Source: Gammaproteobacteria bacterium (lineage in GTDB: Bacteria > Pseudomonadota > Gammaproteobacteria > SZUA-140). From it: a stretch of DNA of 61,027 nucleotides. The notes under the pieces were generated by a model that was given only the letters and a program-made list of their open reading frames with translations, had not been told where the DNA came from and made no database searches. The position numbers and the translations under genes were made by a program. Shown in pieces: positions 33,382 to 39,737 of the stretch. The stretch lies in assembly GCA_016218365.1 (NCBI GenBank), contig JACREF010000003.1, positions 1-61,027 on the forward strand, in the 5' to 3' direction. Position 1 is the first letter of the stretch. The number at the start of each line of letters is the position of its first letter.

Positions 33382-33407
33382 TCAGCGGCAACGCCCTGCT
33401 GATAATG

Positions 33408-33436
33408 CTGCGGGCCGTATGGCCCGCAGTTTTTTT
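33408..33436 (+). terminator. Intrinsic terminator after porin
   Basis: A 9-bp GC-rich stem (CTGCGGGCC/GGCCCGCAG) with loop GTAT is followed by seven T. It ends the binding protein/porin unit. Confidence 0.92.
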
Positions 33437-33439
33437 ATC

Positions 33440-33660
33440 TGTTTGGGGTCAGAGTAGAATGGTACTTACTTAAGCGTTTTTGATAGGAGGCAGCCTGGGT
33501 TGAACGGAGTGAAACCCGGGTTTCGCTGTCGCTCAACCCAGGCTACCCGCCGGCTACCTCTTTAAGTAAGTGCCATTCGGGTCAGAGTAAAAACTTTTCG
33601 CTATACTTCCGTTGACGGCACCCATGCTGGTGAAAGGAGTTTTTACTCTGACCCCAAACA
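33440..33660. repeat. Inverted-repeat element split by a MITE
   Basis: The right arm is 33638-33660 (23 bases). Its exact reverse complement is found as 33440-33456 joined to 33590-33595, that is, a left arm cut in two by the 122-bp MITE plus one copy of the 11-bp target duplication. The loop between arms is about 42 bases and contains the probable start codon of the antiporter gene. The arm core GGGTCAGAGTA resembles REP-like sequences. Confidence 0.85.
33457..33578. mobile_element. 122-bp MITE, copy 1
   Basis: The ends are inverted repeats GAATGGTACTTACTTAA and its near-complement. Inside lies a large hairpin built from GCCTGGGTTGA/TCAACCCAGGC with GAAACCCGGGTTTC at its tip. The element is flanked by an exact 11-bp direct repeat GGGTCAGAGTA at 33446-33456 and 33579-33589. 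It has no coding capacity. It matches the reverse complement of copy 2 with 4 differences in 122 bases. Confidence 0.9.
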
Positions 33661-35006
33661 AACACTCTGGCTGCGCCCTGGCGCTGACCCTGCTGTCCGG
33701 CCCTGCGTGGGCCGCTGACGGCCCGACCATCGCCGGCATCCCGGTCGAGTTCATGCTGTTTGCGCTGACGCTGCTGGGTGTGGCGCTGTTCCACCATCAG
33801 ACGTTCAGGGTCGCGCTCGCCGGCGTATTGGCCGTTGCACTGTATAAGATCCTGGTCACCGGCTTCAAGACCGGGGACGGCATCCCGGGCTTCATCACCC
33901 ATCTCGGTCACGAGTGGGTGACGCTGGCCAACCTGTTCTGCCTGTTACTGGGTTTCGCCATCCTGGCGCGTCATTTCGAGAAGAGCCACGTCCCGGTCAT
34001 CCTGCCGAAATATCTGCCCGATGACTGGAAGGGCGCCTTCGGCGTGTTGCTGATCGTCTGGGTGATGTCGAGTTTCCTCGACAACATCGCTGCCGCGCTG
34101 ATCGGCGGTGCGATGGCCCATCAGCTGTTCAAGACCAGGGTCCATATCGGTTACCTCGCCGCCATCGTCGCCGCCTCGAATGCCGGCGGTGCCTTCTCGG
34201 TGGTCGGCGACACCACGACGACGATGATGTGGATTGCCGGCGTCCACCCCGGTGCGGTGTTTGAGGCCATCCTGGCCTCCGGCGTGGCATTGCTGATCTC
34301 GGGCTATTTTGCCGCCCGGCAGCAGCACGCCTATTCGCCGATCATCAAGAATGCGCACCAGCACACCCATGTCGATTGGGGCCGGATCTTCATTGTGATA
34401 CTGATGCTGGGTTTCGCGATGATGACCAATGTCATTGTCAACGTCTACTTCAAATCCATCAGCAGCAGTTTCCCGTTTATCGGCGTCGCGGTGTGGGTCG
34501 CCATCCTGCTGACGATCCCGGTGCGTCGTCATGACTGGGAGGTGGTCAGTGAATCGATGAAGGGTACATTCTTCCTGCTGTTTCTCGTCACCACCGCGTC
34601 GATGATGCCGGTGGAGGCGCTGCCGGCCGCGTCCTGGCAGTCGGCCTTCGGCCTCGGCTTCACCTCCGCGGTGTTTGACAACATCCCGCTGACTGCATTG
34701 GCGATCCGCCAGGACGGTTACGACTGGGGGTTCCTCGCCTTCGCCGTCGGCTATGGCGGCTCGCTGCTGTGGTTCGGCTCGTCGGCCGGCGTGGCGCTGT
34801 CAAACATGTATCCGGAATCCAGATCTGCGGTACGCTGGCTGCGTCACGGCTGGCATGTCGCCGTGGCCTATGTCGTCGCCTTCATGGTCATGCTGGCAGT
34901 GCTGGGCTGGCATGGCGAGACGATAGTCAGCACCCACGCCACTCGGCCATCGGCCGCGGTAAATCCTCACTTTGAAGCCACAGCCGAGCCCGCGTTACAG
35001 CAATAG
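33624..35006 (+). CDS. NhaD-type sodium/proton antiporter
   Basis: This protein of about 460 residues belongs to the ion transporter superfamily that includes NhaD and CitMHS. It has 11-12 hydrophobic helices and conserved re-entrant segments SFLDNIAAALIGG, NAGGAFSVVGDTTTTMMW and SAVFDNIPLTAL. The N-terminus looks like a signal peptide (cleavage near AWAAD). The ATG at 33624 has no good ribosome site, and a TTG at 33612 is an alternative. The first ten codons lie in the arm of an inverted-repeat element, so the 5' end has been rebuilt. It converges with the RND pump gene, 6 bp apart. Confidence 0.82.
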   Translation: MLVKGVFTLTPNKHSGCALALTLLSGPAWAADGPTIAGIPVEFMLFALTLLGVALFHHQTFRVALAGVLAVALYKILVTGFKTGDGIPGFITHLGHEWVTLANLFCLLLGFAILARHFEKSHVPVILPKYLPDDWKGAFGVLLIVWVMSSFLDNIAAALIGGAMAHQLFKTRVHIGYLAAIVAASNAGGAFSVVGDTTTTMMWIAGVHPGAVFEAILASGVALLISGYFAARQQHAYSPIIKNAHQHTHVDWGRIFIVILMLGFAMMTNVIVNVYFKSISSSFPFIGVAVWVAILLTIPVRRHDWEVVSESMKGTFFLLFLVTTASMMPVEALPAASWQSAFGLGFTSAVFDNIPLTALAIRQDGYDWGFLAFAVGYGGSLLWFGSSAGVALSNMYPESRSAVRWLRHGWHVAVAYVVAFMVMLAVLGWHGETIVSTHATRPSAAVNPHFEATAEPALQQ

Positions 35007-35012
35007 AGACCG

Positions 35013-38000
35013 TCATTCTCCGGGCACATCATCCAACATCATCTGGTTTTCAGATGATGTGACGCTCCCCTCTGCTGCAAGGTGATCGGTGGCCAGCAGC
35101 ATGTACATGGCCGGCACGACAAACAGCGTGAACACGGTGCCGATCGACAGCCCGGTGAAGATCACCAGCCCCATCGAATACCGCCCCGCCGCCCCTGCGC
35201 CGCTGGCCAGCACCAGCGGGATGACGCCGAGCACCATCGCGGCAGTCGTCATCAGGATCGGCCGCAGCCGCACCGCCGCGGCCTCCTCGATCGCCGCGCG
35301 CTTGGCCACGCCGGCACGCTGCAGATCGTTGGCGAACTGCACAATCAGGATGCCATGCTTGCTGATCAGCCCCATCAGCGTCACCAGACCGACCTGGGTG
35401 TAGATATTGATGGTGGCCAGCCCCAGATTGATGAACAACAACGCGCCGAGCAGCGCCATCGGCACCGATACCAGGATGATCAGCGGGTCCCTGAAACTGT
35501 TGAACTGGATCGACAGCGCCAGAAATACAATGACAATGGCAAACAACATCGTGAAGACGAACCCGCCCGATTCCTGCATGAACTGGCGCGACTGCCCGGC
35601 ATAATCGATGCTGAATCCGGACGGCGCGACGGCATGCAGCGTGTCGCCGAGGAATGTCAGCACCTGCTGCTGCGTCACACCCGGCGCATACACCCCCTGG
35701 ATGGTGGCGGAATTGAGCTGCTGGAAACGATTGATCGATTCGGGTACCACCTCGTGACTGATGCTGGCCACGGTGGAGGCCGGGAGCACCGAGCCATCCG
35801 CGGCGCGGATATAATAATCGAGCACCTGGTCCGGATTCAGACGCTCGGCCTGCTTCACCTGCGGTATCACCCGGTAGGACCGGCCGTCGATGGAAAAATA
35901 GTTCACATAGCCGCCGCTCAGCGCACTGCTCAGCGCCTCCCCGACATCCTGCTGCGTCAGGCCGAGCGCACTGACCATGTCGCGATCGACCCTGACAGTG
36001 CTCTGCGGTTTGTCGATCTTCAGGTCGCTGTTGATGAAAAAGAACATGCCGGTCGCCTGCGCTTGGTCAACCACCTGTTGCACCACGGCATTCAGGCTGG
36101 TGAAGGACTCCGTCGATTTGACGACGAACTGCAGCGGCAGCCCTCCGGAACCGGGCAAGGGCGGAAACTGGAAGGCCGCCACCTGCGCCCCGGCAATCCC
36201 GTTCCATTTCTGCTGCAGCTCCTGTTGCAACTCCTTGGCATTGCGACTGCGCTCCTCCCATGGCTTGAACAACACACCGCCGATGCCGCTGTTGACCGTC
36301 GGGATGCCGGTGATCTGGAACATCTGATCATATTCGGGCAGCTGGCGCGCGATGGCAAAGGCCTGGTCGGCATAGGTCTGCATCTGCGCATTGGTGGCAT
36401 TGGGCGCCCCGATGATCTGGCCGGCCACGATACCCTGATCCTCTTCCGGTGCCAGCTCGGATGCCGAGGTCGCAAACAGGAACACCACACCGAGCAACAA
36501 CAGGAAGCCCATGACAATCTGCACCTTCCAGGTGTTCATCGCGCCGTGCAGACGGCGCTGATATCCGTGGCGGACCTTGTCGAAGGCCCGGTCAACGAAC
36601 CTGACCAGCGCGGTGCTGTCCTGGTCGGCGCGGAAGAATTTCGCGGTCATCATCGGCGACAGTGTCAGCGCGATGATGCCTGACACGGTGACGGCGCCAG
36701 CCAGCGTGAAGGCGAACTCACTGAACAGCGCGCCGGTCAATCCGCCCTGAAAGCCGATCGGGACATACACAGCAATCAGCACGATGGTCATCGCGATGAT
36801 CGGCCCGCCCAGCTCGCGCGCGCCGATCAACGAGGCCGCCAGCGGCGACTTGCCTTCCTTCATGTGGCGATCGACATTCTCGACCACGATGATCGCATCA
36901 TCGACCACCAGCCCGATGGCCAGCACCAGCGCCAGCAGCGTCAGCAGATTGATGGTGTAACCCAGCGCCAGCATCACGGCAAAGGCGCCGATCATCGACA
37001 GCGGGATCGCGACCAGCGGGATGATCACTGCCCTGGCACTGCCCAGAAACAGGAATACCACCAGCGACACGATCAGCAAGGCCTCGGCCAGCGTCTTGAC
37101 GACCTCGCGTATCGAGCTGTCAATGAAGCGGGTGCCGTCATAGACGATCTTGCCGGTGATGCCGGACGGCATCTGCGCCTGGATATCCGGAAACACCTGT
37201 TTGACGCGGCCGATCACCTCGAGGATATTGGCATCGGGGGCCACCTTGATGCCGATGAACACGGCCTTGCGGCCGCCAAAGGCCGTGGTCAGGTTATAGT
37301 CTTCGGCCCCCAGCACCACATCGGCGACATCATGCAGCCGCACGACCGCATCACCATGACGCTTGATCACCAGCTGCTTGAACTCTTCGACGGAATGCAG
37401 GTCGGTGGCCGCGGTCAGGTCGACACTGACCATCTGGCCCTTGGTCGTGCCAAGCGCGGCCAGATAATTGTTGCTGGCCAGCGCGGCATTGACGTCGCTG
37501 GCCGTCACCGCGTAGGCCGCCATGCGCTTCGGGTCCAGCCAGGCACGCAAGGCGAACTGGCGGCCGCCGAGGATCTCGGCGCGCTGCACCCCCTCGATGC
37601 CGTCGAGCTGCGGCTTGACGACGCGCAACAGATAATCGGTCAGATTGTTGTTCGGCAGATCCTTGCCGAAGAATCCCATGTACATCGAATCGACGGTCTC
37701 GCCGACCTGGACCGTGATCACCGGCTGCTGGGCCTGCCTCGGCAACTGGTTCAATACAGCATTGACCTTGCTGCTGATGTCGGTCAGCGCACGGTTGGAA
37801 TCATAATTCAGCCGCAGCGTCGCGGAGATCGTCGAGGCGCTGCTGACGCTGATCGACGACAGGTAATCGATGCCGCCGGCCTGGGCGATGGCGCCTTCCA
37901 GCGGCTGGGTGATAAAACCGGCGATGGTATTGGCATCGGCCCCGTAATAGACGGTACTGACGGTGATCACCGCATTCTGGGTTTCCGGAAACTGGCGAAC

Positions 38001-38102
38001 CGGCAAGATCGATATGGCCTGCAAGCCGAGCACCAGCACCAGCAGGCTGACGGTGATCGCCAGCACCGGGCGCTGGATGAAGATATCGGTGAAATGCTTC
38101 AT
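35013..38102 (-). CDS. RND multidrug efflux permease
   Basis: This 1029-residue inner membrane pump of the AcrB/MexB (HAE1) family has a first helix at about 12-30, two large periplasmic loops and the proton-relay segment GLVVDDAIIVVENV with the DD pair in helix 4. The end is helical and cytoplasmic. It exports drugs or other amphiphiles with a membrane fusion protein and an outer membrane channel. The start at 38102 has GAGG and lies 4 bp after the fusion-protein gene. No TolC-like gene follows, so an unlinked channel must serve. Confidence 0.93.
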   Translation of the reverse strand: MKHFTDIFIQRPVLAITVSLLVLVLGLQAISILPVRQFPETQNAVITVSTVYYGADANTIAGFITQPLEGAIAQAGGIDYLSSISVSSASTISATLRLNYDSNRALTDISSKVNAVLNQLPRQAQQPVITVQVGETVDSMYMGFFGKDLPNNNLTDYLLRVVKPQLDGIEGVQRAEILGGRQFALRAWLDPKRMAAYAVTASDVNAALASNNYLAALGTTKGQMVSVDLTAATDLHSVEEFKQLVIKRHGDAVVRLHDVADVVLGAEDYNLTTAFGGRKAVFIGIKVAPDANILEVIGRVKQVFPDIQAQMPSGITGKIVYDGTRFIDSSIREVVKTLAEALLIVSLVVFLFLGSARAVIIPLVAIPLSMIGAFAVMLALGYTINLLTLLALVLAIGLVVDDAIIVVENVDRHMKEGKSPLAASLIGARELGGPIIAMTIVLIAVYVPIGFQGGLTGALFSEFAFTLAGAVTVSGIIALTLSPMMTAKFFRADQDSTALVRFVDRAFDKVRHGYQRRLHGAMNTWKVQIVMGFLLLLGVVFLFATSASELAPEEDQGIVAGQIIGAPNATNAQMQTYADQAFAIARQLPEYDQMFQITGIPTVNSGIGGVLFKPWEERSRNAKELQQELQQKWNGIAGAQVAAFQFPPLPGSGGLPLQFVVKSTESFTSLNAVVQQVVDQAQATGMFFFINSDLKIDKPQSTVRVDRDMVSALGLTQQDVGEALSSALSGGYVNYFSIDGRSYRVIPQVKQAERLNPDQVLDYYIRAADGSVLPASTVASISHEVVPESINRFQQLNSATIQGVYAPGVTQQQVLTFLGDTLHAVAPSGFSIDYAGQSRQFMQESGGFVFTMLFAIVIVFLALSIQFNSFRDPLIILVSVPMALLGALLFINLGLATINIYTQVGLVTLMGLISKHGILIVQFANDLQRAGVAKRAAIEEAAAVRLRPILMTTAAMVLGVIPLVLASGAGAAGRYSMGLVIFTGLSIGTVFTLFVVPAMYMLLATDHLAAEGSVTSSENQMMLDDVPGE

Positions 38103-38106
38103 TGCC

Positions 38107-39237
38107 TCAATGTTCCTGCGGCGTAGGCGCGGCGTCATTGGCGGGCTGCACGCTGTTGTCTATGATCAGCGGCGTGCCGTTTCTGAGCTTGACCTGGCCG
38201 CTGGTGATGACCTGCGTCCCTGGCTGGAGACCCGCAATGATCGCCACCTGGTCACCGCGTGTCGCGCCGGTGGTCACAAACACCTGTTCAGCCACCGGCA
38301 AGGCCTTGTCACCGGCCGCGGCCTGCGGCGGCCTGGCGATAAAGACCGTGGCGCCATAGGCGTTATAGTTGATGGCGGTCTGTGGCAAGGTCAGCAACTG
38401 CTCCGGTGCGCCACGCTCTATCATCACATTGGCAAACATGCCGGGCAACAGCGCATCATCGGTATTGGCGAGCACGGCCTCGGCCTGGATGTTGCGGGTG
38501 GCCGCATCGACGGCGGCATTGATGGCGCGGATCCGTCCGCTGAATTCACGGCCTTCATAACTGTTGGTGGTCAGACGCACCCGCTGCCCCGCCTTCAGCA
38601 GCGCTATCTGCCGTTGCGGAACACCGAAATCAACGACGATCGGATCGGTTGCCTGCAACGAAACGATCTTGTCGGCCGAACTGATGAACTGCCCCACGCT
38701 GACCCGGCTGATCCCCAGCGTGCCGTCAAAAGGCGCGCGGATCTCCATCTTGTTGACGATCGCCTGCTGCTCCAGCTGCTGGGCCTTTTTGCCCTTCAGG
38801 TCGGCGAGCGCGATGTCCAGTTGCGCCTGGCTGATCGTCTTCTCGTTGAACTGCGCCTGGTCACGCTGATAGATAATGGTGGCCAGTTCGGTCGCGGCCT
38901 TCAGCGCCGCCAGTTTTGCCAGCTCGGCCTCTGAGTCCAGCCGCAGCAGCAACTGCCCGGCCTTGACGTGATCACCCGATTTGAAGGCGATCTCTCTGAT
39001 AATCCCCGGCTTCTCGCTGATGATGTCCACGCCATTAACGGCGCGCAGCGTACCCACCGCGGTGATCTGTGGTTGCCATTGTTCGAAATGGGCCGCCATC
39101 GCGGTCACCGTTGCCGGCGGCAGCCCGTTGCCAGACAGCCATTTTTTCATCATCGCGGCCTTGAAGACCTGGAAGCCATAAATCGCCCCGAACACCGTCG
39201 CGACGCTGACCAGCATGATGAACATGCGCTTTTTCAT
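38107..39237 (-). CDS. RND membrane fusion protein (HlyD/AcrA type)
   Basis: This 376-residue periplasmic adaptor has an N-terminal signal/anchor helix (5-22), lipoyl halves around ISEKPGIIREIAFKSGDHVKAGQLLLRLD and MEIRAPFDGTLGISRVSVGQFI, a helical hairpin between them and beta-barrel and membrane-proximal domains. It couples the RND pump directly downstream to an outer membrane channel. There is no lipobox. Start 39237 follows AGGGTGA. Confidence 0.92.
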   Translation of the reverse strand: MKKRMFIMLVSVATVFGAIYGFQVFKAAMMKKWLSGNGLPPATVTAMAAHFEQWQPQITAVGTLRAVNGVDIISEKPGIIREIAFKSGDHVKAGQLLLRLDSEAELAKLAALKAATELATIIYQRDQAQFNEKTISQAQLDIALADLKGKKAQQLEQQAIVNKMEIRAPFDGTLGISRVSVGQFISSADKIVSLQATDPIVVDFGVPQRQIALLKAGQRVRLTTNSYEGREFSGRIRAINAAVDAATRNIQAEAVLANTDDALLPGMFANVMIERGAPEQLLTLPQTAINYNAYGATVFIARPPQAAAGDKALPVAEQVFVTTGATRGDQVAIIAGLQPGTQVITSGQVKLRNGTPLIIDNSVQPANDAAPTPQEH

Positions 39238-39737
39238 TACGTGTCACCCTGAAAATCCTGGGAGGTTCTGAATAATTCGTGTCGTCGCATAACGCCATTG
39301 CCCAGGCCGCGCATGGCGAACTTCCAGATCAGGCAGCGTGATCCCTGTGTTCGTTGAAACCTGGCGCCAGACCGCCCGTGATATAGACTGGACATGCCGC
39401 CCCACTGCCTGACTATACTCTATAGAAACACGTCTTTTCCATATCAGACTACCGGACTGCTAATCCCCAGAACTCGTACTGGTACTAAGATATGTACCGC
39501 TACATTTCGAGGATACGTTCTGTGGCACGCCCGCTTGATGATGAGTTCAATTTCTTGGTATCCAGAAACCGTGATCTGTCCCGAATGGTACTTACTTAAG
39601 GGGGTAGCCGGCGGGTAGCCTGGGTTGAGCGACAGCGAAACCCGGGTTTCACTCCGTTCAACCCAGGCTACCTCCTATCAAAAACGCTTAAGTAAGTACC
39701 ATTCTGATCTGTCCCTGATTATTTCGGTGATTATTTT
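39238..39737. other. Intergenic region carrying MITE copy 2
   Basis: Apart from the MITE at 39583-39704, no gene is supported in these 500 bases. The target of the MITE, around CCAGAAACCGTGATCTGTCCC, resembles text at 43925-43945 and 43998-44020 (CCGTGG-TC-GTCCC), so the insertion went into an existing short dispersed repeat. Confidence 0.6.
39583..39704. mobile_element. 122-bp MITE, copy 2 (inverted)
   Basis: It has the same length and ends as the copy at 33457 but lies in the opposite orientation. It is flanked by an exact 11-bp duplication TGATCTGTCCC at 39572-39582 and 39705-39715. Four substitutions separate the two copies, so both are recent. No transposase gene is in the window; the 11-bp duplication length is in the range known for IS4-group elements, which is only a hint. 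Confidence 0.9.

Follow-up and report, generated by a model that had tools for sequence, protein, structure and literature searches.

Two nearly identical 122-bp repeats lie in opposite orientations in the DNA stretch analysed here (hereafter the window; 61,027 nt, positions 1 to 61,027 of JACREF010000003.1, assembly GCA_016218365.1), which is contig C8 of a gammaproteobacterial assembly of 2.26 Mb in 33 contigs. The question that they raise is what placed them there, and how their sites were chosen. A sequence-only reading had taken them for a family of miniature inverted-repeat transposable elements (MITEs) with 11-bp target duplications. The identification as a MITE stood, but that reading had overlooked the target selectivity, the core of repetitive extragenic palindromic (REP) sequences arranged as a REPIN, and an older inverted repeat split by one of the copies. 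Our results indicate that the unit is very probably a non-autonomous element of the IS4-subgroup type, which depends on an IS4-type DDE transposase acting in trans with an 11-bp stagger, has a palindromic target preference and carries the REPIN as a passenger.

Copy 1 (33457..33578, + strand) was delimited by reading the sequence, by an end search and by alignment to the consensus. Copy 2 (39583..39704, − strand) is also 122 bp long and inverted relative to copy 1. Direct reading and alignment confirmed that the two are identical at 118 of 122 positions once placed in a common orientation, and that each is flanked by a different, exact 11-bp duplication: GGGTCAGAGTA at 33446..33456 and 33579..33589, and TGATCTGTCCC (reverse complement GGGACAGATCA) at 39572..39582 and 39705..39715 (all read on the + strand). 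The 17-base terminal inverted repeats attributed to both copies were perfect in copy 2 (39583..39599, +, and 39688..39704, −; 17/17). Those of copy 1 (33457..33473, +, GAATGGTACTTACTTAA, and 33562..33578, −, GAATGGCACTTACTTAA) had one mismatch (16/17). The window contained four matches to the ends, compared with a mean of 0.01 in shuffled sequence, and both copies are located between open reading frames (ORFs). Oriented alike with respect to the element, the two duplications (GGGTCAGAGTA and GGGACAGATCA) agreed at 8 of 11 positions, a first hint of selective targeting.

A genome-wide search with the end GAATGGTACTTACTTAA, as the sequence-only reading had proposed, detected 45 occurrences with up to 2 mismatches, and none with the reversed control. 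BLAST of copy 1 and its flanks against the genome returned 71 matches. There were 13 distinct complete 122-bp copies, each matching their consensus at 120–122 of 122 positions. Among 16 two-ended copies measured, which included forms of 111, 179 and 258 bp, 12 had an exact 11-bp duplication, and the other 4 matched at 8–10 of 11 positions. Exact 11-bp duplications were also present at 9/25 sites in relatives and at 17/52 in the named genomes among the matches listed; those of other lengths numbered four of 10 bp and one of 12 bp. The near identity of the copies, together with the many different duplications, argued for recent transposition, and the family was accordingly confirmed as a recently mobile MITE. 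Copies without such duplications or with ragged ends had been named as what would speak against the family. The 4 inexact copies, and 9 one-ended copies that lacked one terminus, were of this kind; against the 12 exact duplications they look like products of decay or rearrangement.

The copy at the end of contig C15 had the left flank of the copy at the start of C14, and the two were taken as one locus. One of this pair, the duplicate locus L061 and flanks too close to contig ends were excluded from the counts. Contig breaks occurred at or right beside MITE copies (C9 end, C14 start, C15 end), so there may be more copies than counted, and the gaps may hide a full-length insertion sequence (IS). 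Nested repeats of this type account for some assembly breaks. No match to the MITE itself was found in the plasmid and phage collections searched.

The ends were carried by 28 of 143 genomes, including the source genome. In other genomes, pairs of ends about 1.5 kb apart were found, and three were fetched. Two of these (L067 and L069) contained long open transposase frames, and the frame of the third (L068) was broken. The transposases P0001 and P0002 scored 213 and 222 bits against the NCBIfam IS4-family model NF033592 (cut-off 115), and contained the YREK motif, with D-D and D-E spacings of 79 and 108. Seven full-length elements with MITE-type ends (L067, L068, L069 and L089–L092) were 1503–1550 bp long, and the end GAATGGCACTTACTTAA fitted, by eye, the pattern of the IS4 subgroup. 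De Palmenaer et al. (2008, PMC2266710) characterize that subgroup by ends of the form -AATR--------WTW, 10–13-bp duplications, a length of 1400–1650 bp, YREK and D(60-110)D(100-150)E. Exact 11-bp duplications flanked L067, L089 and L090; those of L069 differed, and L068, L091 and L092 were unduplicated as they stand. One complete genome contained four 1503-bp full-length copies with the same ends. Two of them were exactly duplicated, and the flanks of the other two looked swapped between copies, as after recombination. In a class-wide draw, a relative (E <= 1e-30) was present in 18 of 369 genomes.

In their YREK motif, D-D-E spacing, ends, size, 10–13-bp duplications and match to the curated model, the full-length relatives thus belong to the IS4 family and to the IS4 subgroup. 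The 122-bp unit is a MITE: it is short, encodes no transposase, is present in many copies, and has its ends and duplications in common with a full-length element.

To define the target, the named genomes were scanned for exact 18-base ends, which yielded at least 116 stretches, from which 131 flanks of ends, comprising 123 distinct 11-mers, were obtained; the flank counts that follow are those among the matches listed. The motif GGGWCAGA, on either strand and at no fewer than 6 of its 8 positions, was found in 63 of the 123 distinct flanks, against 1.1% of 23,147 11-mers drawn at random from these loci. The oriented consensus of 50 two-ended sites, whose 11-bp duplications differed at one position at most, consisted of an A/T-rich stretch, (G)GGGTCAGA followed by three looser positions, and a second A/T-rich stretch, orienting the sites being a step that biases the resulting logo. 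In the unoriented count (121 flanks, those with N being omitted as well), the G half-site was present in 65, the C half-site in 61 and both in 33, as expected under independence. Because the half-sites were independent, our first reading, of a strictly asymmetric target with homing to terminal repeats, was dropped for an intrinsic palindromic preference. Read most simply, the counts point to an intrinsic insertion preference for GGGWCNGWCCC with two-fold symmetry. Full-length copies likewise lay within the motif, e.g. at GGGTCAGTGTA, GACTCTGACCC and GTATCTGACCC. In literature searches with the letters of the target motif, the papers listed were unrelated.

Many potential targets are provided by an older repeat. 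The sequence GGGGTCAGAGTA had 18 exact matches in the source genome and 34 with up to 1 mismatch, against 5 for the reversed control. It forms the arms of inverted-repeat elements, of which C20:46600-46683 and C18:113951-114024 are uninserted examples. Copy 1 interrupts one such arm: the left arm runs from 33441 to 33456 (+, GTTTGGGGTCAGAGTA) and resumes past the insertion at 33590..33595 (+, AAAACT), where copy 1 had cut it off. The right arm (33638..33659, −, AGTTTTTACTCTGACCCCAAAC) is the reverse complement of the rejoined left arm and contains the motif at 33644-33654. This right arm overlaps the start of ORF 33612-35006, which encodes a hydrophobic protein with no Pfam match, and with a translation start at 33612 or 33624, part of the N-terminus may be encoded by the repeat arm.

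The motif of these target repeats fitted GGGGWSAS, which is given as the conserved part of TIRYT terminal repeats in the account of Di Nocera et al. (2013, PMC3733652). A TIRYT relative was present in 26 plasmid records, of which five were examined: the motif was located within 100 bp upstream of the TIRYT gene in 4/5 and on both sides in 3/5. A motif pair also lay within about 100 bp of the TIRYT-type gene at L113, and at other loci the strict motif was found at 3 of 11 TIRYT-type genes. The link of the target motif to TIRYT repeats appears to hold for some loci and is not general. Inverted GGGGTCAGA pairs were present in 25 of 143 genomes (control 0), and 18 of these 25 carried no IS4-type end. 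Target hairpins paired at 0.7–1.1 kb were also considered as brackets of TIRYT genes; in six regions, no tyrosine transposase was seen among the ORFs, the translations being judged by eye and not by family search. A second Y1 transposase gene in the source genome (L087, G000:C31:2500-6500), which resembles the TIRYT of L113, had no adjoining GGGGWCAG-like repeats in the assembly.

The middle of the MITE contains GTAGCCTGGGTTGA...AACCCGGG twice in inverted orientation, i.e. a REPIN. In copy 1 the core spans 33490..33546, with REPs at 33490-33503 (+) and 33533-33546 (−), and the first tag is mutated to GCAG. In copy 2 it spans 39615..39671, with REP matches at 39615-39628 (+) and 39658-39671 (−). 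An identical REP stem brackets a Y1_Tnp gene, of the REP-associated tyrosine transposase (RAYT) type, in contig C22 (L088:1784 and 2445). The core is thus an inverted pair of GTAG-tagged palindromes and matches the REPs that flank a RAYT-type Y1 gene in the source genome. REP matches in the source genome numbered 70, against 1 for the control. The fetched loci contained 31 REPIN pairs: 27 had an IS4-type end within 60 bp, two had one at 378 and 401 bp, and two had none. This suggested that the REPIN spread here chiefly as a passenger of the IS4-type unit.

Interiors varied widely among 61 elements that have both ends and measure at most 600 bp, a set in which the 122-bp family was represented once. 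A CGTC-tagged palindrome was present in 18 of them, against a mean of 7.3 and a maximum of 13 for permuted tags. A strict GTAG-tagged palindrome was present in 9 of the 61 (permuted mean 6.5, maximum 20), an enrichment that was not significant, in part because the permuted tags match the same palindromes.

All nine one-ended copies inspected in the source genome (L031, L038, L041, L047, L049, L053, L054, L055 and L058) broke off a few bases past a complete REPIN, with either terminus kept. In three of the nine (L031, L054 and L058), the left flank was repeated after the break (20, 27 and 58 bp), and in L041 the target motif and its flank reappeared 26 bp farther along. These breaks possibly resulted from template switching at the hairpin or from cutting by a RAYT.

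Such breaks would also be in line with a unit moved by the RAYT through its REPIN core, with the IS4-like termini as passengers, and the RAYT-type gene of the source genome, bracketed by the same REPs, would be at hand. On the other hand, the sharp boundaries at the IS4-type ends and the 11-bp duplications suit a DDE transposase; target duplication is not expected of RAYTs. Moreover, the same ends elsewhere surround unrelated interiors and complete IS4 transposase genes. We therefore regard movement by the RAYT as highly improbable. The core could instead have kept the element in place through a function of its hairpin, as a terminator or an RNA-stability element. Its folds had high stability, at −61 to −72 kcal/mol (z of roughly −8 to −9, with 0 of 200 shuffles as good), and the position of both window copies between ORFs would suit such a role. 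However, neither copy had a T-run after the stem-loop, neither was flagged by the terminator scan, and the scan did flag an ordinary terminator just upstream of copy 1 (33407-33430). A terminator role for the hairpin, which the sequence-only reading had suggested, was therefore not supported. Near-identical copies with their own duplications also suggest recent spread rather than selected retention, and retention for a hairpin function is improbable.

Target choice could rest on homing to TIRYT-type repeats, in which the transposase recognizes the whole repeat or its structure and not an intrinsic short motif. An inverted partner near 8 of 19 high-scoring sites in the source genome (reversed control 0/19) agrees with this, as does the motif bracketing TIRYT genes on plasmids and fitting their published consensus. 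Elsewhere, however, a partner was found at only 8/48 sites in the named genomes among the matches listed (control 0) and at 1/23 in relatives (control 1). The half-sites were independent, as with a short symmetric target, and several sites, e.g. GTATTAGATGG, are no repeats. Homing is thus rather unlikely, and inverted repeats would be hot spots simply by containing the motif.

Several observations weigh against a non-autonomous IS4-type element with a palindromic preference. The sequence-only reading had called for the full-length element and its transposase, and these were found in other genomes and not in the element's own assembly: the source genome had no match to P0002 at E <= 1e-30 and none to the IS4 N-terminal family PF13006. 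The partner is thus only deduced, although an assembly gap could hide it. P0001 itself reached only 17.5 bits against PF13006 (cut-off 25), and P0002 was not listed. Neither half-site was present in 28 of the 121 flanks among the matches listed, and two of four plasmid IS4 relatives were duplicated at sites without the motif (GTATTAAGGC and GTATATAGTG). Across the 143 genomes, IS4 ends did not track target hairpins (7/28 vs 18/115, p 0.27). The only DDE_Tnp_1 gene found in the source genome (C14:14189-14695) was rejected as a partner, since its ends differ (GGAACCTC...GAGGTTCC).

Under the IS4-type interpretation, the transposase would act in trans from a full-length element that the assembly does not show, and would recognize the 17-bp ends GAATGG[T/C]ACTTACTTAA. 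The 122-bp unit would be excised (cut-and-paste, by analogy with the published mechanism of the family) and reinserted with an 11-bp stagger, favoring roughly palindromic GGGWC-N-GWCCC in an A/T-rich surround. Near-matching sites would be well supplied by the GGGGTCAGAGTA arms of pre-existing inverted repeats, which resemble the GGGGWSAS terminal repeats of TIRYTs. The REP hairpin, which matches the REPs at the RAYT-type gene of the source genome, may have been captured between IS4 ends and would be spread by them as a passenger. Several kinds of mobile DNA would thus be stacked here: IS4-type ends, a REPIN from another mobile system, and insertion into older repeats.

Every ingredient of this arrangement has a precedent. 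IS231A, of the IS4 family, makes duplications of about 11 bp at a GGG(N)5CCC target; it belongs to another subgroup and has other ends, and the inner WCNGW is an addition here. A 'spectacular apparent insertion specificity' was noted for some members of the IS4 subgroup in the description cited above (De Palmenaer et al. 2008, PMC2266710); the element in the window, at 122 bp, is non-autonomous, and its target may equal or differ from the published consensus. ISRm22 of Sinorhizobium meliloti, also of the IS4 family, is described as preferring palindromic repeats, with 10/10 copies in REPs (Tobes and Pareja 2006, PMC1525189). It is of the IS4Sa subgroup, however, and REPs, of another repeat family, are its target and not its cargo. 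QMITE2 of Coxiella burnetii, as described, is a 150–190-bp MITE with terminal repeats, variable duplications of 7–11 nt and a GTAG REP inside (PMC5896051), and by this description a precedent for a MITE containing such a REP; it is itself targeted by IS1111, whereas here the MITE invades another repeat. The GTAG REPs with their RAYTs and the TIRYT repeats, as surveyed in 2013 (PMC3733652), share with our element the GTAG-type REP pair of the core and the GGGGWSAS-type target repeats, but in our element the REPs are enclosed by ends of the DDE-transposase kind. In literature searches for a link between IS4, REPs and TIRYTs, ISRm22 and QMITE2 were the nearest among the papers listed, which is not proof of absence. 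What sets the element apart is the combination, and the occurrence of these ends at REP-type palindromes across many genomes.

REPs are among the commonest bacterial repeats, and their mode of spread is debated. For CGTC-tagged REPs, no dedicated transposase is known, and the 2013 survey left movement by other transposases open (PMC3733652). IS4 ends around a REPIN core, and relatives in which these ends enclose CGTC palindromes, offer a testable route for the spread of REPs, and the clear target preference renders IS4-type target choice testable as well. Tentatively, and with the odds somewhat against it, IS4-subgroup ends may be a general vehicle for REP-type palindromes, including CGTC-tagged ones, in many Gamma- and Betaproteobacteria, so that part of the REPs would be spread as MITE cargo by DDE transposases and not by RAYTs.

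Longer copies of the MITE (L045, L046, L048 and L060, in C21, C22 and C28) contained a further palindromic element, which lay within the terminal repeat and was bounded by TTAA repeats. The ends of this nested element (GGAACCTCTGAT...-like) resembled, by eye, those of the DDE element at C14:14189-14695, and a third type of element seems to be nested in these copies. In a sediment gammaproteobacterial metagenome-assembled genome (JAHKKL010000277.1, L229:3389-3499), the same ends delimit an element of 111 bp whose GTAGCCTGGGTTGA core is nearly identical.

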